Under the pieces are notes generated by a model. That model was not told where the DNA came from and did no database searches. It saw nothing but the letters and a program-made list of their open reading frames with translations. Positions 1-44,688 of a stretch of DNA of 64,000 bases are shown one piece after another. Both the position numbers and the translations under genes were made by a program. The stretch's first letter is position 1. Every line of letters starts with the position of its first letter. Source of the stretch: Geodermatophilus sabuli (GTDB taxonomy: Bacteria > Actinomycetota > Actinomycetes > Mycobacteriales > Geodermatophilaceae); the NCBI RefSeq assembly GCF_010686765.1, contig NZ_JAAGWF010000022.1:62001-126000 (forward strand). Reading direction: 5' to 3'.

Positions 1-474
1 ATTCATTGTACAACATTGCGGCTCTTATTACAAGGATCTCTGAGGCGTTCCGGCATTGCCTTGGCTAATACGGTACGGGTGGCAAGGGGGGATGGCAATA
101 CCAGGAAATCAATCGACCTAGGAACTTGCCGTCTGGGATTTGTTAGGGGCTCACAGGAGCGCTGAGCCGGTCCAGCCAGCGCCCGGGGGGATCAGCCTGG
201 GAGACGCGACGTCGACTATGCGGGCCGCCGGTACGAACCTCAGCTTAATCGGAGCCGCCGGTCCTGTGTCGCCAATACGGTCCCCTGTCGCTCACCGTGC
301 CCTCTTGGGTTTTCTGCCCGGGGCCGCGTTGTGCTGTTGCTCTGGACGTCGCTGGTGTCAGCGTCGCCGAGCAGAGTTCACCTCTCCCGGGTGACCTGCA
401 GCGTGTCCCTACGGAACGGCGCCGTCCGCCTCGCTACTCTCCGGGCTCAGACGTGAGCGAGGCGGAGGCGGGAC
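1..474. other. No supported gene (left edge)
   Basis: Base composition is mixed and less GC-biased than the rest of the window. The short open frames here (for example 140-394) lack a convincing ribosome binding site, domain or codon bias. The only structure I see is a 13-nt motif at 434-446 that recurs at 875-887 (listed separately). No tRNA or integrase was recognised. Confidence 0.5.
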
Positions 475-887
475 GTGGGCAAGTCAGTACGGGTCGAGCA
501 GGGCTGCAGGGACTGTAAGAAGTGCACTAACTCGGGTGCGGCCAACCTGGGGAGGAACACCGGCCGGGCCTCCATGGGGCTGATGACCTTCGGCATGTCC
601 GAGGTCGGCATGCGGGCGTTCGCCAAGAAGTGCCGCATCTGCGATCACCAGCTCAGCCTGCATGAGGGGGCTGCAGCAAAGACGCCGCAGCCGGCCGTCT
701 CGTTCATGGATCGCCTAGCAGCAGCTGCGCCGGCTCTTGCTGCGCCTGCGCCTGCGCCGAGCGGCCCACCGCCCGGGTTCTACACGGATCCTCAGGGTCT
801 TGCGCCCATGCGGTGGTGGGACGGTTACGCCTGGACCGAGCACACCACTTCGGCTCCGCCGCAGTAGCCGCGTCCTACTCTCCGGGC
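434..887 (+). repeat. 13-nt direct repeat before two adjacent gene starts
   Basis: CTACTCTCCGGGC occurs exactly at 434-446 and again at 875-887. The first copy lies about 29 nt before the DUF2510 start at 475. The second ends directly at the GTG start of the TIR gene (888). TACTCT inside the motif could act as a -10 element, which would make the second transcript almost leaderless. Whether this is promoter duplication or chance is unknown. Confidence 0.35.
475..867 (+). CDS. DUF2510 protein with Cys-rich N-terminal half
   Basis: This 130-residue protein starts at GTG 475 behind a purine-rich GGCGGAGG stretch. The N-terminal half carries two cysteine pairs (CRDCKKC near residues 11-17 and CRIC near 54-57), which look like a split zinc ribbon. 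The C-terminal part after an Ala/Pro linker is a DUF2510 motif: a PGFYxDP start followed by a WWDGxxWTEHT-like core. DUF2510 is a short actinobacterial module often fused to membrane or signalling proteins. No membrane segment is visible. It ends 20 nt before the TIR gene, so the two are probably co-transcribed. Function is unknown, but pairing with a TIR effector suggests a sensor or accessory role (inference). Confidence 0.75.
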   Translation: MGKSVRVEQGCRDCKKCTNSGAANLGRNTGRASMGLMTFGMSEVGMRAFAKKCRICDHQLSLHEGAAAKTPQPAVSFMDRLAAAAPALAAPAPAPSGPPPGFYTDPQGLAPMRWWDGYAWTEHTTSAPPQ

Positions 888-1709
888 GTGAAGGTCTTCA
901 TCAGCTGGTCGGGGGACGAGAGCCGGCAGATCGCGGAGGCTCTCCGTGACTGGCTGCCCATGATGTTCGAGTCGATCGAGCCCTACATGTCCGCGCGAGA
1001 CAACGACGCGGGTGTCCGATGGGCGAACGTGATAGCGACCGAATTGGACGAGGGCTCGTTCGGCATCCTGTGCATGACGCCGGACAACCTCACCGCCCCG
1101 TGGGTGATGTTCGAGGCTGGCGCTCTGGGAAAGGCCGTGGATACGTCGCGAGTGGTGCCGCTGTTGTGGCGACTAAATCCGGCCGACGTCAAGGCGCCAT
1201 TGACGCAGTTTCACATGAAGCTGGTCGACCGCGATGGCGTCTTTGACCTTATGAAATCGATCAACGCGAGTCTGGACCGCCCCCGACCAGACGTAACCCT
1301 AGAGGGGACGTTCAACGCCCTGTGGCCACGTCTCGAAGGAGATCTTGGGAACGTCAAGCCCAAGTCGGCGGAATCGCAGGCAGTCCTTCAGCGGACGGAG
1401 CGAGATCTTCTCGAAGAGATTCTGGACCTAGTTCGGGCTGGACAGCAGTCCAACTCTTCCTCATGGACGTTGGCAAATCGGATGAGACACGATCGAGATA
1501 GTGCGCGTAACGCGCTGCTTTCCGAGATCCAACAGAACCTTCCGAACGGGATAGACGTACATTCCCTAGCGCGCTCGGGAATGAGTGCGCAGACTATCTT
1601 CATTGCAGCAGACGAAGAGTCCGCAAAAGAGGCTAGCGCCATTGTGGGCAGGTATCAGAAACAGGCCAAAGAACTCGACATGTTACTGGAAGTCTCGAAA
1701 TACGACTAG
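888..1709 (+). CDS. TIR-domain protein
   Basis: The protein has 273 residues from GTG 888. That start is chosen because the first residues, VFISWSGD, are exactly the usual beginning of a TIR fold. The TIR domain spans roughly residues 1-140. The segment at 70-80 (APWVMFEAGAL) has the Trp and Glu arrangement of catalytic TIRs, with E76 as candidate NAD-cleaving residue. The rest is a mainly helical region ending in a small alpha/beta-looking tail. Bacterial TIR proteins are commonly NADases or cyclic-ADPR-type signal producers in anti-phage systems; that role here is inferred. Codon use is less GC-biased than in the core genes. The upstream DUF2510 gene is the likely partner. Confidence 0.8.
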   Translation: MKVFISWSGDESRQIAEALRDWLPMMFESIEPYMSARDNDAGVRWANVIATELDEGSFGILCMTPDNLTAPWVMFEAGALGKAVDTSRVVPLLWRLNPADVKAPLTQFHMKLVDRDGVFDLMKSINASLDRPRPDVTLEGTFNALWPRLEGDLGNVKPKSAESQAVLQRTERDLLEEILDLVRAGQQSNSSSWTLANRMRHDRDSARNALLSEIQQNLPNGIDVHSLARSGMSAQTIFIAADEESAKEASAIVGRYQKQAKELDMLLEVSKYD

Positions 1710-2533
1710 TGTCTGCGCTCATACGGGCGGTGGCGCGCCTTCGTCCCTGGAAGAGGGCGGACGAGGGCGGTTCCAGTAGGCCGTAAGCAGGGCGGCAGCT
1801 GCGACGAGTAGGTCAGGCAGCCGGTTGCCGAGCAAGGCAACGAAATCACGCATAGAAGTTCTACGGAGTTGCGACTCCACACTTATGACGCGTAACTGGA
1901 TCGTTATCCACTATAGCAAGTTGAGACGGTCTGCCGTCACTGAGCGTAGGGACTTCTCCCCGGGGGCTGACTCGGTGACCTGAGTGAGATTCAGACGCGG
2001 TCTGCACGGCTGGTACAGGTAACAACCCGGGCTGGCCGCGCAGATTCGCTTCTGGATAGCTGGTGTCACGGAGACGGAAGCGGTCCGGCTTGATCAAGGC
2101 GTCGTACCGGCCGAGACCCCAGTCGTGCCGATGGGTCCAGCTGTGGTCCGCCATCCAGCCCCGGTGGTCATCCTGTCAACGAGCCGAAGCGGGTCGAACA
2201 GCTGGCGCTGCAGTAGACGCACGGTTTGGACACACGTTCCAAGCGGCCGCTGCGGGGGCAAGGACACTCGGCTCGCCCGGAGAGGTGAGCGAGTGGTGAT
2301 CTGCTGCGGTCCGCGATGGACCCTTAGCGGATGACCTTCGCGGCCAGCTGCGCTGCCGTACCACGACGGCGCGCGTGCGGCGGATGGGTTATGTGGTCAA
2401 CTTCGTGAGCTGGCCGCCCAAGAGGCCACCGAGCTGGACTGGTGGACGTTCCAGGTGACGGGTCCCGAGACCACGACCGGAGCCCATGGGCGGGTCTGGT
2501 TTGAGTGGACAGGGACGGTGGCACGTTGGTCGC
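1710..2533. other. About 820 bp without a supported gene
   Basis: Several short frames overlap here on both strands and none is convincing. From about 2334 to 2548 one plus-strand frame reads like real protein (repeated Leu-Ala-Glu helices, then a Trp-rich stretch WWTFQVTG and VWFEWTG). It has no ATG, GTG or TTG start after the preceding stop. It may be the decayed 3' end of a gene. It overlaps the start of the next gene by about 15 nt. Confidence 0.4.
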
Positions 2534-3088
2534 GTGCCGGCTCCTGAGCTAGTCCTCTCCTACATCCAGACGCTGATCTGGCCGGTCGTGGTCCTCATCG
2601 CGCTCTTCCTCTTCCGGAACTCGATCCGGGGTCTCCTCAAGCGCATCAGCCAGTTCGACGCCTTCGGCGTGACGGCGACCATGGCCGAGGAGGCGCGTGA
2701 CGTCGAGGCTGCGCTGGCCGTCGCTGCCCAACCGGAGACGGACGAGGGGCAGCGCAGAGACGTTCTCGAGTTCCTGGTTCAACAGGCGACACAGTTCGGC
2801 CGGGCACAAGAGGCGGCAGGCGGAAAGCCGGTAAGCGTGGCCGTTGACTGGTCCGGGGCCGCGCCGCGTGTCGTGACGGAGGAGCGAGACCTAATCAAGC
2901 GCCGCAGGGAGAACCTGCAGTTGCGTCGCCAGCGCATCGCCGAGGAGGCCATCCTGGCGAGGCAATCCGCAGAGATTGTTAAGGCCCAGAGGCTTAACCA
3001 GGAGTTGTCCGAGCTGGATGACGCCCTGGAACATCTCGAACAGCAGGAGCGCGATGAGCACGATCGAGGGCCACGTGAAGCCTCGTGA
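2534..3088 (+). CDS. Membrane-anchored coiled-coil protein, unknown
   Basis: The start is placed at GTG 2534, which gives 184 residues and puts the membrane segment at the very N-terminus. The segment (about residues 6-27, WPVVVLIALFLFR) is followed by a basic stop-transfer patch, an acidic Ala/Glu-rich middle, and a long highly charged heptad-like C-terminal helix rich in Arg, Glu, Gln and Leu. The pattern of one helix plus a cytoplasmic coiled coil suggests a scaffold or sensor subunit. No enzymatic motif is visible. It stands alone, with noncoding DNA on both sides, inside the lower-GC accessory region. Confidence 0.65.
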   Translation: MPAPELVLSYIQTLIWPVVVLIALFLFRNSIRGLLKRISQFDAFGVTATMAEEARDVEAALAVAAQPETDEGQRRDVLEFLVQQATQFGRAQEAAGGKPVSVAVDWSGAAPRVVTEERDLIKRRRENLQLRRQRIAEEAILARQSAEIVKAQRLNQELSELDDALEHLEQQERDEHDRGPREAS

Positions 3089-3405
3089 CCTGCCTAGTTT
3101 GTGGCCCTTCATCTCACTGACAGCCGTACGTGATCACGCGAGACGGCGCTCGATCAGGCTGACGGGATCGGGGCACTGCGGCGGCGAAGTCGACGTGAAG
3201 ATCCCAACGAGCACCGCGCCGACCGCTGCGCCATAGGACCATGAAGAAGGCTTGTTGCGGATCGGCAGCACTTATAGGCCGACCGGGACCACCGACGCCT
3301 CACGGCTTCCCTTGCGTGCGCTCGGCGTTCTGCCGGAGCTCTAGCGGTGCGCCCTCGGCGCGCCGTATGGTTCGGTGACTTGGCTCGGACGACGATGCGG
3401 ACGCT
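3089..3405. other. 317 bp without a supported gene
   Basis: I see no coding frame with a plausible start and no strong hairpin. It presumably contains the promoter of the gene starting at 3406. Confidence 0.4.
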
Positions 3406-4086
3406 ATGAACTCCCAGGGTCAGCAAGGCAAGTGGCGCGGGTTGTGGGACATCACCAACCATCAAGTGATTGGCGGTCTGGTGGTCGCAGCGGTAGTCGC
3501 AATTGTCACCTGGCTATTCCTCAGTAGCGAAACCGAAGTGGAACAGCCAATTGCTGATGGGGCTTCACCATCAACCTCGACATCGGCTGCAACCTCGACT
3601 TCAACCTCGCCGAGTCCAACCGGACCCACGGCCCCGCCGCCCACCGCGCCCCCACCTGCGCCTGCAAGGGTGACCGCCGCCGACGAAATCCGATGGGACA
3701 GCGGCGGAACGTGGTGGTGGTGGAACGAGACCGTCCAAATGAACGGCCGAGACTACACCCGTGCGCTCATGAATTGCGGCAGCCCCGACAATCCCGCCGA
3801 ATGCAGTTTCGTTTCCGCGAATTACGGGTCAATGGAGCTCGTTGTGCCTAGTCGGCGCTCTGCGCTTACCGCCATGCTTGGGCTCTCGGATGACTCGTCA
3901 CAGGACTGCGACGTGGATGTGGCAATTGTACTAAACGGCGAGCCGTGGAGCAGCTTCTCGCTCAGTCGCGGCACCTACGAAGACCTTACCGTACCTCTTG
4001 ATGGCATCCAGCAGGTTAAAATCGATACAAGGTTCGAAGGTGGTGTCGGTTGCAAAGTCGCTTTCGGTGACGCCACGTGGTCGTAG
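3406..4086 (+). CDS. Anchored protein with NPCBM/NEW2-like ectodomain
   Basis: The protein has 226 residues. A short cytoplasmic stretch (1-22) is followed by one membrane helix (about 23-40), then a Ser/Thr/Pro linker (about 52-88) like those that span actinobacterial cell wall, then a compact beta-rich domain. The domain has the NPCBM/NEW2 layout: a region about small changes of state (LTAMLGLSDDSS), a cysteine-containing DVDVAIVLNG strand, a V/I-rich strand pair, and a final FGDATW resembling the family's closing motif. Family members are putative carbohydrate-binding modules. This one has no catalytic domain attached, so the role is unclear. It lies alone in the accessory region. Confidence 0.65.
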   Translation: MNSQGQQGKWRGLWDITNHQVIGGLVVAAVVAIVTWLFLSSETEVEQPIADGASPSTSTSAATSTSTSPSPTGPTAPPPTAPPPAPARVTAADEIRWDSGGTWWWWNETVQMNGRDYTRALMNCGSPDNPAECSFVSANYGSMELVVPSRRSALTAMLGLSDDSSQDCDVDVAIVLNGEPWSSFSLSRGTYEDLTVPLDGIQQVKIDTRFEGGVGCKVAFGDATWS

Positions 4087-4451
4087 GCACCGGACGTAGC
4101 AACCGACTAGGCCACTCACCTCGGGCCCGGAGTTTGCCCGACTGCCGAGCAGTATCAAGCATCCGGTCCGTTGGGGTCAGCTAAGGCCGGCAGATGACAG
4201 ATCACCAGCACGAACATGCCGGTTTTGAGACGGGTCGCACCAGTAAGACGACCCGGGACTGCGGTAGCGCGGCGCGCCCCTGTTCTACGAGGCGACGTGC
4301 TGGCTCCCAAGAGCCCAGCAGACGTCAGGACCGAGTAACGATACTCGCGTGGACGGATGGGTTTGACAGGTCGATCGCCGACCCAGGCGGGCAAAGATCC
4401 GCTCGGCGATGTCGACACTGACAACCTATGCGACGCGCAAGAGCCCCACGA
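4087..4451. other. 365 bp without a supported gene
   Basis: The neighbouring genes converge here. Short overlapping frames (for example 4194-4421) lack start signals and protein-like composition. No clear terminator stem was found. Confidence 0.4.
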
Positions 4452-5123
4452 CTAGGACAAGGGTCCAGGCCTGCCGTACCGGTGCGGTAGTGGCGACCGA
4501 TTCGCGTCGGCCGCGCCATCGGGGAAAAATACGCCGATTTCGGCCGCCACCTGCGGCCAGCGCTGCTCGTATGAATTGGCCGTGGTCCGGGCGAACTGCC
4601 GAGCGGCCAAGCCCGCCTCGGGATGCGAACCCGGAGATTCCGCTAACAACCTGGCCACATAGGTTTGCAGTCCTTTGAGTGCCGTATATTGGGGATGCGC
4701 GGAGTATCCCCAGTTCAGCTGGCGGCCGTGTCGGATAGCAGAGCGGAGCACTCGATAGGACTGACGCAACGCCGCAAGGGCATCCACTTGCGAATCCGTG
4801 AGGATGCGCTCAGTCGTGACCTTCACGAGCAGCGCCTCAATCGTGCCCTCCGCCGCAGTGGCCCTTCCGAGAAGTACCCATGGGAGATCAGCTGGCGCCG
4901 ATGGATCCGCCCCCTCCTTCGAACAGTGAGCATTCCATGTTTTCCATATAGCATAGAACTCGCCGTAGGCGCGGTACAGGTCCGCTAGCGACGCCAGATC
5001 CAGCTCGCGCTGCTTCTTGGTTCGTTCCCACCGGTCACTCACGCGCTGCCCAACAAGCCAGCCACCGACAAGCGTGATTAGGACCGCCGCGACAGGCGTA
5101 AAGGCACGTATCCACTCGATCAT
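4452..5123 (-). CDS. Single-helix membrane protein, unknown
   Basis: The protein has 223 residues and starts at ATG 5123. Residues about 8-27 form one membrane helix (FTPVAAVLITLVGGWLVG), followed by a basic patch and a long mainly helical cytoplasmic domain with a few aromatic clusters (RAYGEFYAIWKTW). It lacks recognisable catalytic motifs. The topology matches the other accessory-region membrane proteins here, but sequence similarity to them is not evident. Codon use is moderately GC-biased. Function is not recognised. Confidence 0.6.
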   Translation of the reverse strand: MIEWIRAFTPVAAVLITLVGGWLVGQRVSDRWERTKKQRELDLASLADLYRAYGEFYAIWKTWNAHCSKEGADPSAPADLPWVLLGRATAAEGTIEALLVKVTTERILTDSQVDALAALRQSYRVLRSAIRHGRQLNWGYSAHPQYTALKGLQTYVARLLAESPGSHPEAGLAARQFARTTANSYEQRWPQVAAEIGVFFPDGAADANRSPLPHRYGRPGPLS

Positions 5124-5506
5124 TTTGATGTTGCTCCCCTAGTTCCACGCAGCGTTTGGCAGGTCGCGCGTGTCACTCGCCTACGTTCACGTCACACAGC
5201 CGGCACGCTATCTGCACGACGGCCCACCCCGCTGGCTTGTTCTGCTCCGCACATCAGCGACGCGGGAGGGTATCGGTGGTAATGGTGAACATGCTCGTTC
5301 CTGCCCCGACTCCGGCTCCGTTGACAAGGTGCTGGTTCTAGACAGGCTGTACGTGGAAGACCACCAGCTCCGAACGCTCTCATACTCTCTACCCACGGCC
5401 TTGCCCCCAGGCGAGCCAGGGGCAGCCCACCCCGTCAACCAAGACGAGGCGACGTGACAGGGCATTCGCCCCCTCGGATGTGGGTTCCTCGCCCAAGCCG
5501 ATCCGC
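5124..5506. other. 383 bp without a supported gene
   Basis: Frames on both strands are open for up to about 120 codons, but the translations are low-complexity Arg/Ser/Pro strings typical of noncoding GC-rich DNA. The region contains the promoter side of the minus-strand gene ending at 4452 and the terminator side of the peptidase gene. Confidence 0.4.
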
Positions 5507-6670
5507 TCAGCGCCAGCTTGTATCGACGCCGCTTCCGGGCCCGTACTGGTCGACTAGACGCTTCCTGGCCCGTTCCCATAATAGGCCTGTCGCCACTTGG
5601 ACACTGTCGGCGAGTGCAACGGCGGACTGCGCCTGAGCTTCATCCATATACTCTGACCAACCCCTCCGCAGCATTTCGCGACGCATTGTCGCCGGTGGAT
5701 GGGAACCGAGCTTTTGGGCGCTCTCATCACCATAACGCAATAGCGAGACGGCCCGATCCATAACGTCCATGGCACTAAAGAATAGATCGCCCCCGGAGGC
5801 GCTCAACGCGGCGTCGTACCCGTCGCTCGACATCGCTGCGACGGAGAGCACCGACCCAAAGTGGTCGGCCACAATCTCTTGCCGCCACGAGTACTCCAGT
5901 TCGTCGGCGGCGAAGTCGCCTTCGGCTGGAATGTCGGGGGTGCTCTGGGGATCGAGGTGCCCTGCGATGACATGGCCGTACTCGTGGCCAAGGACGAACA
6001 GCTCCATCGACTCTCGAAAGACGGGAGCCAGGTGCGAATGGGGCCACCCGAGAGCATATTGTGGCGCTCGACTTGGGTCTCCGAAACGCGCGTAAGCGGC
6101 TACGGCTTGGAAGAAGCGCTCAGCGACCCCAGGTTCCGATGATATCCGACGCTTGATGTTCTCGGGGTCTGACGAGAATGAAAGATAGTCACCGTCCCCT
6201 CGATCCGCGTAAGGCATGGCCGCGGCCACGGCTTTACTGAGTAGGTTGGCGAAAGTGAAGAAGCTGGACTCAAAGAGAATAGCCTTCGCGGCGGATCCTG
6301 GCACACGGACGGTCATGGCGTTCACGCGCCCGGTAGGTAGAGTGGCAATCGTAGGCCACTCGGGCGCGCTCCTTAGGATACGACCTCCCGTCTGACGAAT
6401 GCTTACTGCAAGGTCCTTCGCAATTTTATAGCTCGTTGGGTGCTCATACTTGGTAGGGCACTCTGCAATCAATTCTTCGCTGGATCGCACCCAGTCGTCT
6501 ATGAACTTCTGGCGGTCGATACCCTTGGGTACCGCACCTACGTCGTACTGTTGCTCAGCCATGCGAGGTGCAATCTGCCGCAGTAGGGCATGGTCTGGCA
6601 AGGGGCGACCTGTCCGGAGATACGTCGCTCGTTGCAAATCCTCAACAAATTTCGATACAGAAACGCTCAT
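5507..6670 (-). CDS. HExxH zinc metallopeptidase-like protein
   Basis: The protein has 387 residues. The centre carries H229-E-Y-G-H233 inside a hydrophobic helix, with E265 in the motif EIVADH 32 residues later. That matches the third-ligand arrangement of M48-like gluzincins. No membrane helix was seen, unlike classic HtpX or Ste24 M48 peptidases, so this is a soluble or peripheral variant. The N-terminal 130 residues are unassigned. Its start overlaps the stop of the upstream membrane protein by 4 nt (ATGA), so the two are translationally coupled and probably act together. The GC level is lower than in the core genes. Possible roles are effector protease or stress proteolysis (inference). 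Confidence 0.7.
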   Translation of the reverse strand: MSVSVSKFVEDLQRATYLRTGRPLPDHALLRQIAPRMAEQQYDVGAVPKGIDRQKFIDDWVRSSEELIAECPTKYEHPTSYKIAKDLAVSIRQTGGRILRSAPEWPTIATLPTGRVNAMTVRVPGSAAKAILFESSFFTFANLLSKAVAAAMPYADRGDGDYLSFSSDPENIKRRISSEPGVAERFFQAVAAYARFGDPSRAPQYALGWPHSHLAPVFRESMELFVLGHEYGHVIAGHLDPQSTPDIPAEGDFAADELEYSWRQEIVADHFGSVLSVAAMSSDGYDAALSASGGDLFFSAMDVMDRAVSLLRYGDESAQKLGSHPPATMRREMLRRGWSEYMDEAQAQSAVALADSVQVATGLLWERARKRLVDQYGPGSGVDTSWR

Positions 6671-7164
6671 GATCCCGGCAGCTGCGCGTCAGCTTGCGAC
6701 TCCAACGTCACTGAGGCAACGTCCGCAGGTATGGCGTTCTCTAGAGCGCGCTGTACCACACTGCCTTCTTGGCCGATCAACTCGCCCGCAACGCCAGTCA
6801 CCAGCTCAGATGCCTGTCCGAAAAGGCCCTTTGGCTCCTTCACCTCGACTCGCACCAAGCCGGTCGCTGTGATGATCACGATGAGGCCATACACGAGGTC
6901 GGGCGACCTGTATATCGCCTTGGGGGCACCATGACGAAGGTCGATGATTTGACCGCCACGCCGACTATCGACTAGATATGCGACCGTTGCGACAGCTGAT
7001 ACTGCGCCGATGATGCACAGACTTACGGTGGCGACGGGTTCGATGCCAACCTGGGGAATCTCCTCGACCGCAACATCATGCTCCCTTGCCACGCCTGACA
7101 GGTATGACATTTCATCTGCATCCAGGATGAGGATGCGAGATTCCGTCTCGACGTTCAAGATCAA
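6667..7164 (-). CDS. Membrane protein coupled to the HExxH peptidase
   Basis: The protein has 165 residues. Residues 1-40 look like a small alpha/beta domain with several short strands. Two hydrophobic segments follow (about 44-66, and about 92-106 IVIITATGLVRV) around a polar loop. The C-terminal third is a soluble amphipathic region. No family was recognised. The stop codon overlaps the start of the peptidase gene by 4 nt, which argues for one functional unit: a membrane-located sensor or anchor with a protease. The region 5' to it (7165-7196) would hold the promoter. Confidence 0.6.
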   Translation of the reverse strand: MILNVETESRILILDADEMSYLSGVAREHDVAVEEIPQVGIEPVATVSLCIIGAVSAVATVAYLVDSRRGGQIIDLRHGAPKAIYRSPDLVYGLIVIITATGLVRVEVKEPKGLFGQASELVTGVAGELIGQEGSVVQRALENAIPADVASVTLESQADAQLPGS

Positions 7165-7196
7165 CCCTCCGGGACGCCGGGTCTTAGGATGCTAAC

Positions 7197-7337
7197 GTGC
7201 CACGGGTCAAGATCGCAGAAGCATGGGGAGCGGCTGCGCGCGGAAAGACGCGATCAGCCTTCCGCCCGCTGGGTGCCGAGCAGTTCTACGGGGATGAGCA
7301 GGACAGCCAAAAGGCTGACGGCCCGCCGGGCCGGTGA
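7197..7337 (+). CDS. Possible 46-residue ORF near the island edge
   Basis: A GTG at 7197 opens a frame of 46 codons ending TGA 7335-7337. It is divergent from the gene at 6667-7164. The predicted peptide is basic at its N-terminal half (VPRVKIAEAW, then ARGKTRS) and polar at the end. There is no clear ribosome binding site and no known family. It could be a remnant of a gene broken when the island joined tadC. I list it because it is the only protein-like reading of this stretch. Confidence 0.2.
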   Translation: MPRVKIAEAWGAAARGKTRSAFRPLGAEQFYGDEQDSQKADGPPGR

Positions 7338-7351
7338 TCAATGTGGGGCTG

Positions 7352-8293
7352 TCATGGGGCCGTGGAGCTCACCCTTGGGCGCTGGCCAACGCAATCGTGC
7401 CCGTTCTGGACAGGTCGCACGAGGAAGACGACCGGGACCATCATCGCGATCTCCTTCCGGCCGCCGGACTCCAGCAGCCGGCGCTTGCCGGCCTCCCGCA
7501 CGTCGGCCGCCTGCGCGCGCAGCACCTCGGCCAGCGGGGTGCCGCGCTCGATGGCGACGAGCAGGCCGTCGATGAACCGCGCCAGCGGGTCCAGCGAGGT
7601 CCGGTCGGCGACCTGCTGCAGGGCGTCGGCCAGCGGCAGACCGGCTCGGGCCCGCCCCAGCGCGGCGCCCAGCTCGCGCGCCAGCTCACCACCGGAGAGC
7701 CGGGTGACCCGCGCGATGGCCGCCGTCGGGCTCTCCCCCGCGGTGACCGCCAGGGCCAGCAGCTCCGCGACCACCGGGAACTCGGCGAGCAGCAGCTCCT
7801 CGCGGCGGCGCACCTGCTGGGTGAGCCACCAGTCGCGGCCGAGCACACCGCCGACCAGACCCGCGACGCACAGCAGCGCGGCCGACAGCACGTTGAGGCC
7901 GCCGGCCACCAGCGAGCCGACCGTCGCCACGAGCGCCGCCCCGAGCAGTCCGAGGCCGCCCCAGACCACCTGCTCGATGCGGACGTCCTCGACCGTGCCG
8001 TCGCCGCCGAGTGCGTCCAGGCGCCGCCGGACCGCCGTCCGGCCGCCCAGCACCCGGTCGACCAGCCGGGCGCCGTCGCCGACCACCGGTCCGAAGACCC
8101 GCCGTGCCGCGATCAGCAGGCCCGCCTCCGTCGCGGTGCCGAGCAGCCGGGACGGCGGCGGGGTGTCGTGCACGTAGGGCGCGAGCCGGTCCACCAGGCG
8201 GACCGACCGGAACGGCGGCGCGAACGTGACCACGAGGAGCAGCCCGGCCGCTGCGGCGAGCCCCAGCAGCATCCCCGCCAGCGCCCCGCTCAC
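7352..8293 (-). pseudogene. tadC: TadC, 3' end replaced at island junction
   Basis: A type II secretion F-domain inner-membrane protein of the Tad/Flp pilus platform. From GTG 8293 it reads as a normal TadC: an N-terminal membrane helix, a middle pair of helices, and the T2SSF cytoplasmic helical domain (AEFPVVAELLALAVTAGESP onward). The last membrane helix begins with KEIAMMVPVVFLV near 7420. It then changes abruptly to RPVQNGHDCVG and stops, so about the last 15-20 residues of the family are missing. The break coincides with the change from 70-75% GC to lower-GC DNA. The gene order cpaF-tadB-tadC is intact, but the flp/tadE genes expected downstream are absent. Loss of function is likely but not certain. 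Confidence 0.8.
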
Positions 8294-8367
8294 GAGCCCT
8301 CCTCGCTGGCGCTCGTCGGCCGCGTTCGCGGCGCTGCTGTGCTCGCCGGTGAGCTCGCGAGCTCGTT
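8287..8367 (-). other. 26-codon frame bridging tadB and tadC
   Basis: Between the tadB stop and the tadC start, a GTG at about 8370 opens a short frame (VNELASSP..., 26 codons) whose TGA overlaps the GTG of tadC. It may simply keep ribosomes moving into tadC. The first bases (GTGAACGAGCTCGCGAG) are nearly the same as the start of a similar 26-codon frame before the gene at 31117. Confidence 0.25.
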
Positions 8368-9230
8368 CACTGGAGCACCCGCAGGTCCTGCGGCAGCCGG
8401 CCGATCCGCAGCATCAGCCGGTAGGCGGCCAGGCAGACCGCCGCTCCGCCGAGCAGCAGCGCCGTACCGGCGGGCGAGTCGTAGGCGTCCAGCGTGGTCG
8501 ACTGGGTCGCCAGCAGGAGCAGCACCACCCACGGCGCGGCCACCGCCAGCCGGGCGGCCTGCACCACCCAGCCCTGCCGCGTCTCCAGCTCCGCACGGGC
8601 GCGGGCGTCCTCGCGGAGGAAGGTGGACAGGGTCCTGAGCACGCGGCCCAGGTCGCTGCCACCGACCTCGCGCGCCACCCGGAGCGTCTCCACGATGCGG
8701 TCGCCGACGGGCTCGGCCAGGTCGGCCTTGAGCCGGTCCAGGCAGTCGCCGAACCGGCCGCTGGACCGGTAGTCCGCGGCGAAGCGCGCGAACGGGGGAC
8801 GCAGCACCTCCGGTCCGCGGACCGACAGGGCCGACAGCGCCTCGGGCAGGGACAGCCCGGCACGGACGGCGGAGGCGAGGTTGTCGACGACGTCCGGCCA
8901 GACCTCCCGCAGGTCCGCCCGGCGCGAGGCGGCCAGCCGGCGCACCTGCAGCGCGGGCAGGGCGGCTCCGAACGCACCGAAGACCAGGCTCACCGTGACC
9001 GTGCCGGTGGTGAGCAGGACGACGACGAGGGTGAGCAGCCCGAGGCCCACCTGCAGGGCGAGCAGCTGCGCGGCGTTGATGCCGGTCAGCCCGGCCGCGG
9101 CCAGCTGCTGCTGCCGCCGCGACGCACCCCGGGGCCGGGACCGCCCCTGCGGCGCCCGCGGACCGCTGCGCCACACCAGCAGCAGCCCGACGCCGAGGAG
9201 CAGGCCGATCAGTGCGCCGTCCAGGCTCAT
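8367..9230 (-). CDS. tadB: Tad pilus platform protein TadB
   Basis: The protein has 287 residues, starting ATG 9230 within an ATGA overlap with the cpaF stop. It has an N-terminal membrane helix (LIGLLLGVGLLLVW), a second hydrophobic pair around residues 60-100, the T2SSF helical domain (VVDNLASAVRAGLSLPEAL and REVGGSDLGRVLRTLSTFLRED), and C-terminal membrane helices (about 215-275). TadB and TadC together form the inner-membrane base on which the CpaF ATPase assembles Flp pilin. Translational coupling with cpaF supports equal production. Confidence 0.9.
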   Translation of the reverse strand: MSLDGALIGLLLGVGLLLVWRSGPRAPQGRSRPRGASRRQQQLAAAGLTGINAAQLLALQVGLGLLTLVVVLLTTGTVTVSLVFGAFGAALPALQVRRLAASRRADLREVWPDVVDNLASAVRAGLSLPEALSALSVRGPEVLRPPFARFAADYRSSGRFGDCLDRLKADLAEPVGDRIVETLRVAREVGGSDLGRVLRTLSTFLREDARARAELETRQGWVVQAARLAVAAPWVVLLLLATQSTTLDAYDSPAGTALLLGGAAVCLAAYRLMLRIGRLPQDLRVLQ

Positions 9231-44464: not shown

Positions 44465-44509
44465 CCCCTCCGCCCCCTGGTACCGTCCGTCCGCCGGCCA
44501 CGCGCCGGT

Positions 44510-44603
44510 GACGCACGCGCAGCGAAGTCCGGTGGAAACCCGGCGCTGTCCCGCAACTGTGAGGGTCCCCTGCGGACCTGAGCCAGATCGCCTGCCGTGC
44601 GTC
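44510..44603 (+). promoter_or_regulatory. Cobalamin riboswitch
   Basis: The B12-box pattern is clear: GAAGTCCGGTGGAAACCCGG at 44524-44543, then CGCTGTCCCGCAACTGT, and the closing GAGCCAGATCGCCTGCC near 44579-44596. The outer P1 stem is GACGCACG (44510-44517) with CGTGCGTC (44596-44603). It stands about 85 nt before btuF, so it controls the corrinoid transporter operon, lowering expression when adenosylcobalamin is plentiful. Confidence 0.93.
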
Positions 44604-44609
44604 ATGTCA

Positions 44610-44630
44610 CGACCCTCGCGGCAAGGGTCG
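44610..44630 (+). terminator. Expression-platform hairpin after the riboswitch
   Basis: CGACCCT (44610-44616) and AGGGTCG (44624-44630) form a 7-bp stem directly behind the P1 stem. It may be the hairpin that stops transcription in the ligand-bound state, or a sequestering element for the downstream ribosome site. No U-tract is present. Confidence 0.5.
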
Positions 44631-44688
44631 CGCATCGGGCGTCGGGCGCCCCGTGGGCGGCGTGCGCCGCCTCTCCAGGAGGCCCCCG

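Follow-up and report, generated by a model that had tools for sequence, protein, structure and literature searches.

In the genome of Geodermatophilus sabuli (GCF_010686765.1), the tadC gene of a Tad pilus operon runs into foreign DNA, which raises the questions of what was inserted there and what the insertion means for the pilus. The window analysed here is a stretch of 64,000 nucleotides (contig NZ_JAAGWF010000022.1, positions 62,001 to 126,000; G000:C5:62001-126000) of a 4.79-Mb draft genome in 122 contigs. A first-pass annotation, made from the letters of the window, had placed the border of a foreign region inside tadC at about 7418-7420, with the operon interrupted, and our analysis arrives at the same border. 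Our explanation, which we regard as probable in its entirety, is that an element carrying a large serine recombinase (LSR) sits in tadC and most likely stops both Tad pili and transformation. That such an element was inserted is itself almost certain. Judged from sequence, the border has many counterparts in the family Geodermatophilaceae, where LSRs have often inserted into DNA-uptake genes.

The features of the window that bear on this explanation are as follows:
1-7420, no strand: right 7.4 kb of the 12,187-bp element, the left 4.8 kb with the integrase lying outside the window
475-867, plus strand: cargo, DUF2510 protein
888-1709, plus strand: cargo, TIR-domain protein matching the PADLOC model TIR-TM; candidate anti-phage defence
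2486-3088, plus strand: cargo, open frame without a family match
3406-4086, plus strand: cargo, open frame without a family match
4452-5123, minus strand: cargo, open frame without a family match
5507-6670, minus strand: cargo, HEYGH-motif protein with a weak PADLOC peptidase_U41 match (E 0.00085)
6667-7164, minus strand: cargo, open frame without a family match
7352-7416, minus strand: foreign 3' end of tadC, being element DNA and including a new stop codon
7417-7420, minus strand: right junction of the element, GTGC; the crossover dinucleotide is taken as GT, 7419-7420
7418-8293, minus strand: tadC codons 1-292, cut inside the last membrane helix
8367-9230, minus strand: tadB (T2SSF), open frame of 287 aa
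9227-10480, minus strand: tadA (T2SSE ATPase), open in the window

Elsewhere in the window, a cobalamin (AdoCbl) riboswitch (Rfam RF01482) was observed at 44500-44635. A tRNA-targeted island was considered and rejected, there being no tRNA within the window.

Interruption of tadC and displacement of the operon

The tad operon is read from the minus strand in the order tadA-tadB-tadC, and its tadC frame (7352-8293) encodes 313 aa, with the Pfam T2SSF domain at residues 177-292 (profile positions 3-115 of 125). TadC tracks its intact relatives as far as V292, whose codon ends at 7418, and continues with 21 foreign residues, RPVQNGHDCVGQRPRVSSTAP. A normal last helix, like LPVTVLFALFPGLISIVSLAR, was kept in 27 of the 30 tadC loci compared, the exceptions being the window's own, G009 and G005; the divergence after VVFLV described in the first-pass annotation was thereby confirmed, and no relative had the same tadC end without an island. 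The best 19-residue hydropathy of the TadC end falls from 2.66 to 0.86. The reported drop in composition at the cut also stands, since G+C is 0.58-0.66 across the seven 1-kb steps of positions 1-7000 and 0.77 at 8001-9000.

The flp and tadE genes had been described as missing, which is correct for the window's side of the cut, but they are displaced rather than lost. A search of the genome with the DNA downstream of an intact relative's tadC recovered the missing part of the operon, namely the tadC tail, flp and a pair of tadE genes, to the left of the window at C5:55947-57234, 12 kb left of the cut. This displaced half is 86% identical to the relative's DNA, a further 59-bp match falls at the cut itself, and the tadC tail, flp and both tadE genes form open frames, so that tad genes are open at both ends of the element. 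From core to core the insert measures 12,187 bp (C5:57233-69420), and its left junction core is located at C5:57230-57233, outside the window. Loss of flp and tadE was rejected, as they are still present on this contig, 12,187 bp further left. Neither a sigma-70 promoter nor a terminator was recognised by consensus at the left junction.

In a draft genome of 122 contigs, a false join of contigs at 7420 might produce such a border. We consider this extremely improbable, because both halves of the operon lie on one contig and the same type of junction recurs beside an LSR in other genomes and in another family.

Integrase and attachment sites of the element

The innermost gene at the left end of the element encodes an LSR (P0003) of 494 aa, which starts 31 bp from the left core and unites the Resolvase (PF00239), Recombinase (PF07508) and zinc ribbon (PF13408) domains in one protein. 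By domain set and size, P0003 fits the LSR class, and recombination activity is predicted. It is followed by a smaller serine recombinase (P0004). The two junctions have GTGC as their sole common string; a repeat of the junction bases, which the first-pass annotation proposed to look for at the left end, is limited to these four bases, and a long direct repeat at the element ends was rejected. A short core without a long repeat is the expectation for a large serine recombinase.

The attP obtained by joining the inner halves of the two junctions pairs at 11 of 18 positions about GT, a score reached at 0.26% of centres in the background used, namely the right 9.4 kb of element DNA. Symmetry of attB in tadC was not above background (8 of 18, reached by 17.6% of centres in intact tadC). 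In G062 (Blastococcus atacamensis P6), the junctions have GT as their common core, and 14 of 18 attP positions pair. Short-core junctions, an adjacent LSR gene and an inverted-repeat attP, the features by which LSR elements are placed, were thus all found. Taken together, the displaced tail, the LSR at the left end, the sharing of GTGC alone and the attP inverted repeat mark the border as the attachment site of an LSR element rather than an assembly join. Nor is the cut a chance event, since the family set has 11 further places where an LSR adjoins an interrupted tadC (10 in the census described below and G085).

The scan of the genome collection for LSR relatives works from exact peptide patterns. 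Three named relatives all sit at the same tadC codons as the window's LSR; they come from B. atacamensis (72% identity), a Blastococcus MAG (identity of 81% across 238 aa) and, in another order, Nocardioides cremeus SOB44 (70%). The tadC tail and flp follow about 6.5 kb further on in N. cremeus, and the contig of the Blastococcus MAG ends inside the LSR, so the tail side alone is visible there. Within the order, 6 of 397 genomes match the window's LSR at E 1e-60, namely its own, G062 and four at 45-54% identity. Two of these four, in G023 and G087, lie in tadA; for those of G265 and G347 (53-54% identical), no tad match was found in the 20 kb examined around each. A scan of viral contigs with the window's LSR yielded no unintegrated form of its element, and the LSR matches in the phage collection (280 and 294 records) were all below 60% identity, so there is no near phage.

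Cargo of the element and its relatives

By Pfam, conjugation and virion families were absent from the 12 element frames scanned, comprising seven in the window and five to its left (the two recombinases and frames of 316, 287 and 100 aa, smaller frames falling outside the scan). Cargo varies among the relatives: the window's element carries TIR-TM, that of G062 carries Hachiman HamA and HamB, and that of N. cremeus carries a methylase-Mrr protein. We therefore read the window's element and its LSR relatives as small elements that probably bear defence genes. This cargo would suit an explanation in which broken Tad pili shield the carrier from pilus-dependent phages. Such phage exclusion seems to us improbable as the main cause, because comEC and comM, which are also struck by LSRs in this family (see below), are not pilus genes and would be left unexplained.

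A second kind of LSR in tadC

A second LSR kind (P0005 and its relatives) cuts tadC 18 bases upstream of the window's cut, after KEI(A/Q)MM, in G005, G009, G021, G068, G083, G085, G105 and G116. In five of the eight (G009, G083, G085, G105 and G116), a single contig holds both tadC halves. A tape-measure gene is present in G083, G105 and G116, and a terminase in G083 and G105; on gene content, the elements of G083, G105 and G116 are phage-like, with sizes of 14-18 kb. Orientation varies: in G009 and G105 it is the tail end of the element that holds the LSR, in the other six the tadC end. Related LSR elements thus occupy tadC in opposite orientations in G009 and G105 on one side and G083, G085 and G116 on the other; the core of attP in G009 is the reverse of that in the others, as would be expected if the core dinucleotide set the orientation.

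Symmetry of attP is weak in the second kind (8-9 of 18). The attP deduced from the two junctions of G116 was found intact in the viral contig L210 of IMG/VR, at 44 of 50 bases identical. The right half of this comparison is helped by the neighbouring LSR gene and the left half is not; in the attP half separated from the G116 LSR by 16.6 kb, L210 is identical at 21 of 24 bases. No tad match was detected in 15,325 of the 16,289 bases of L210. A G116-type attP is carried by G021:C483 as well (44 of 50), again with no tad match in the stretch examined. The prediction made from the G116 junctions thus held, and an unintegrated attP was seen for the second kind.

State of the interrupted gene

No relaxed selection was detected in the 5' part of tadC: omega was 0.148 in eight interrupted genes vs 0.126 in 24 intact ones (p 0.59), in a test of 46 tadC rows that gave no value for 14 (seven genes each present twice), left out L072 (interrupted) and L080, and included several 'intact' controls with a broken tadA. 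The lack of decay in the cut gene fits a recent or a reversible insertion, and the insertion may be so recent or so short-lived that it is of no importance.

In the comK prophage of Listeria and the sigK skin elements, a split gene is restored by precise, regulated excision. By analogy, the element in the window could excise conditionally, restore tadC and place the Tad pili under phase regulation. The tad genes open on both sides, the similar omega values and the unintegrated attP of the sister kind are consistent with such a switch. No excised form of the window's own element was found, however, and a young insertion accounts equally well for the lack of decay; we judge a reversible switch to be rather unlikely, and prefer an LSR insertion that most likely stops the pilus as long as the element is integrated.

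LSR insertion sites in Geodermatophilaceae

The census covered 112 genomes of the family and 85 places matching PF07508 at E 1e-6 or better. Each LSR was examined with about 4 kb per side where the contig permitted, and broken tad genes were sought within 3 kb; the LSR of G085:C83, which lies at tadC, fell outside the PF07508 threshold and was excluded from the 85. A broken tadA or tadC was found beside 28 of the 85 LSRs (11 tadC and 17 tadA, one of the latter a 27-codon relic in G112), and all 28 broken ends lie 491-744 bp from the Recombinase domain. Because tadA and tadC together account for roughly 2.2 kb in a genome of some 4.7 Mb, chance does not explain these 28. The tadA breaks fall near residues 88, 155, 215, 238 and 289 and belong to different LSR clades.

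Two further targets serve DNA uptake in other bacteria. An LSR adjoins a comEC gene broken after LTAVSGxN in G001, G114 and G132 (3 of 85); the ComEC Competence domain is present in 107 of the 112 genomes. The comM gene is broken beside an LSR in 5 of 85 places, after GSGFDL in G020, G061, G068 and G085 and near the 3' end in G071. The Pfam domain ChlI was scored in G020, all four N-terminal pieces resemble the G071 frame at 82-96% across 84-86 aa, and both halves of comM were found in G068 and G071. In total, 36 of the 85 LSRs, from several lineages, are in tadA, tadC, comEC or comM. Three candidates were set aside: G001:C31:14844 lies upstream of comEC and not at a break, G071 was rejected as a dprA case when its frames placed the LSR in the 3' end of comM, and G131:C135 was not counted for tadA as its adjoining TadA-like frame is 41% identical. 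The LSR of G131:C135 (L144:3475-3984) belongs to the tadA-215 clade, and the frame beside it is perhaps part of a second pilus locus.

The LSR tree has 86 rows (the 85 and G085:C83, with the relic of G024 labelled apart). On it, the tad label requires 16 changes where shuffling gave 25 on average; related LSRs therefore have targets in common, with convergence of several lineages. Members of one clade do not count as independent events, and clade counts are rough, as some rows are misframed (e.g. G023) and long branches meet. Clades are impure: 6 of 8 members of the tadA-215 clade are at tadA 215 and 4 of 4 members of the tadA-238 clade at tadA 238, and the second-kind clade comprises eight rows at tadC and the unintegrated G021:C483.

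Several odd tad loci were observed in addition. In G006 (C13:131-152 kb), G008 (C12:149-176 kb) and G134 (C17:49-69 kb), tadA is interrupted near residue 155 by inserts measuring about 18-27 kb (L195-L200), in which five LSR queries gave no relative and a simple motif gave no tyrosine integrase; in G004, this point is occupied by an LSR. Additional, partial copies of the tadC 3' region occur at G025:C6:3358, G114:C91:24134, G004:C17:235953, G010:C7:46675 and G003:C25:176151, either away from the main operon or among its remains, and some contain stops; they may be attachment-site DNA that was captured, or remnants of earlier insertions. A second stretch of tadC tail, flp and tadE lies upstream of tadA in G087 (L119:14102-14682), as if the operon had been duplicated. 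A possible third tadC cut near residue 296-303 was seen in G028 (C5:4197-5105 and 37851), where an LSR abuts the tadC tail with its 3' end, and in G107 (C11:3006-3914 and 6627), with no LSR in the 20 kb examined. Finally, a 25-codon piece of tadA (codons 213-237) lies off the operon and about 4 kb from an LSR in G024 (C1:1554918-1554992; L188:419-493).

The remaining 49 LSRs lie elsewhere or beside targets without an assigned identity, five of them beside a frame with an HExKH motif. Flank clustering gave a largest group of 16 (15 at tadA), tadC groups of 6 and 5, and a largest other group of 6. This last one (G031, G033, G080, G082, G106 and G117), which is the largest flank group without a competence gene, lies beside an HNH frame with NLCCLCRxHHRLKT that we take to be 13E12-like. 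These observations lend some weight to the view that LSRs settle in tadA, tadC, comEC and comM as conserved and dispensable genes, likely targets in any event, and gain nothing from the loss of transformation. Most LSR clusters are indeed reported to be site-specific for one to three gene clusters, e.g. prolyl isomerase or magnesium chelatase (Durrant et al. 2022, PMC10083194). Against this view stand the concentration of 36 of 85 LSRs in four genes of one process, the five or so separate points at which different LSR clades strike tadA, and the enrichment of DNA competence genes among LSR targets that Durrant et al. report (PMC10083194). We therefore regard settlement without benefit as possible, though somewhat doubtful.

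Probable consequences for the pilus and possible ones for DNA uptake

We propose that the LSR recombined the attP of the element with an attB located in the conserved VVFLV-LPV codons of tadC. Integration would thereby have cut off the last TadC helix and moved the tadC tail, flp and the two tadE genes to the far end of the element, so that Tad pilus assembly most likely stops while the element is integrated. The Tad machine is probably broken in this state, and the earlier prediction that Tad pili are lost or rewired is likely to be right for as long as integration lasts. Excision would restore tadC.

Where the Tad pilus is the DNA-uptake pilus, as it is in Micrococcus luteus, natural transformation would stop as well. 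In that species, deletion of any tad ORF of both clusters but one abolished transformability, polar effects not being excluded (PMC4322843). Natural transformation could remove an element by recombination, and the targeting of competence genes has been argued to avoid such removal (Croucher et al. 2016, PMC4774983). In this family, many LSR elements lie in genes that function in DNA uptake in other bacteria, which suggests that the elements shut down a process by which they could be removed. Pilus loss alone would leave comEC and comM uncovered, so all four targets are most economically explained by a loss of DNA uptake. To our knowledge, transformation has not been studied in Geodermatophilaceae.

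A broader reading is that diverse LSR elements form a guild whose members have converged on the machinery of DNA uptake, striking tadA at about five points, tadC at two or three, and also comEC and comM. The host would be left deaf to free DNA and the element safe from curing by transformation, and the Tad pilus would be the transformation pilus of the family. We hold this convergence to be an evenly balanced proposition, and by analogy with other competence-gene elements we see about equal grounds for and against selection on the elements for blocking transformation.

If the explanation is correct, then (i) the contest between mobile elements and transformation, known for comYC, comK, comFA and comM, would extend to actinobacterial Tad pilus genes; and (ii) Tad pili would be the DNA-uptake pili of Geodermatophilaceae, with the elements themselves as the evidence. 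The loci also supply natural sets of LSR, attB and attP with attB in conserved coding sequence. In the open-licence literature, which leaves most subscription journals and supplements outside its scope, we found no report of tad genes as LSR targets.

Comparison with known systems

The element resembles the comK prophage and the sigK skin elements in that it splits a gene which precise excision would restore. With the Tad/Flp competence pilus of M. luteus (Angelov et al. 2015, PMC4322843) the locus shares the gene order tadA-tadB-tadC-flp-tadE and its actinobacterial setting; M. luteus differs in having two tad loci, in belonging to another family and in that a role in transformation is known there, whereas here it is proposed by analogy.

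The elements in comYC, comK, comFA and comM discussed by Croucher et al. (PMC4774983) likewise break a transformation gene by integration, with convergence of different integrases and with comM as a target common to both sets. Their main text is without tadA, tadC, Flp, Actinobacteria or Micrococcus, whereas the present set consists of LSRs in Tad genes and comEC. The closest likeness in mechanism is to the LSR elements with attB in a coding gene described by Durrant et al. (PMC10083194), which have the same LSR domain set and one conserved coding site, and among which distant LSRs converge on one gene and competence genes are enriched as targets. The words 'pilus' and 'secretion system' occur 0 times in the main text of that work, whereas in Geodermatophilaceae tadA and tadC take 28 of the 85 LSRs.
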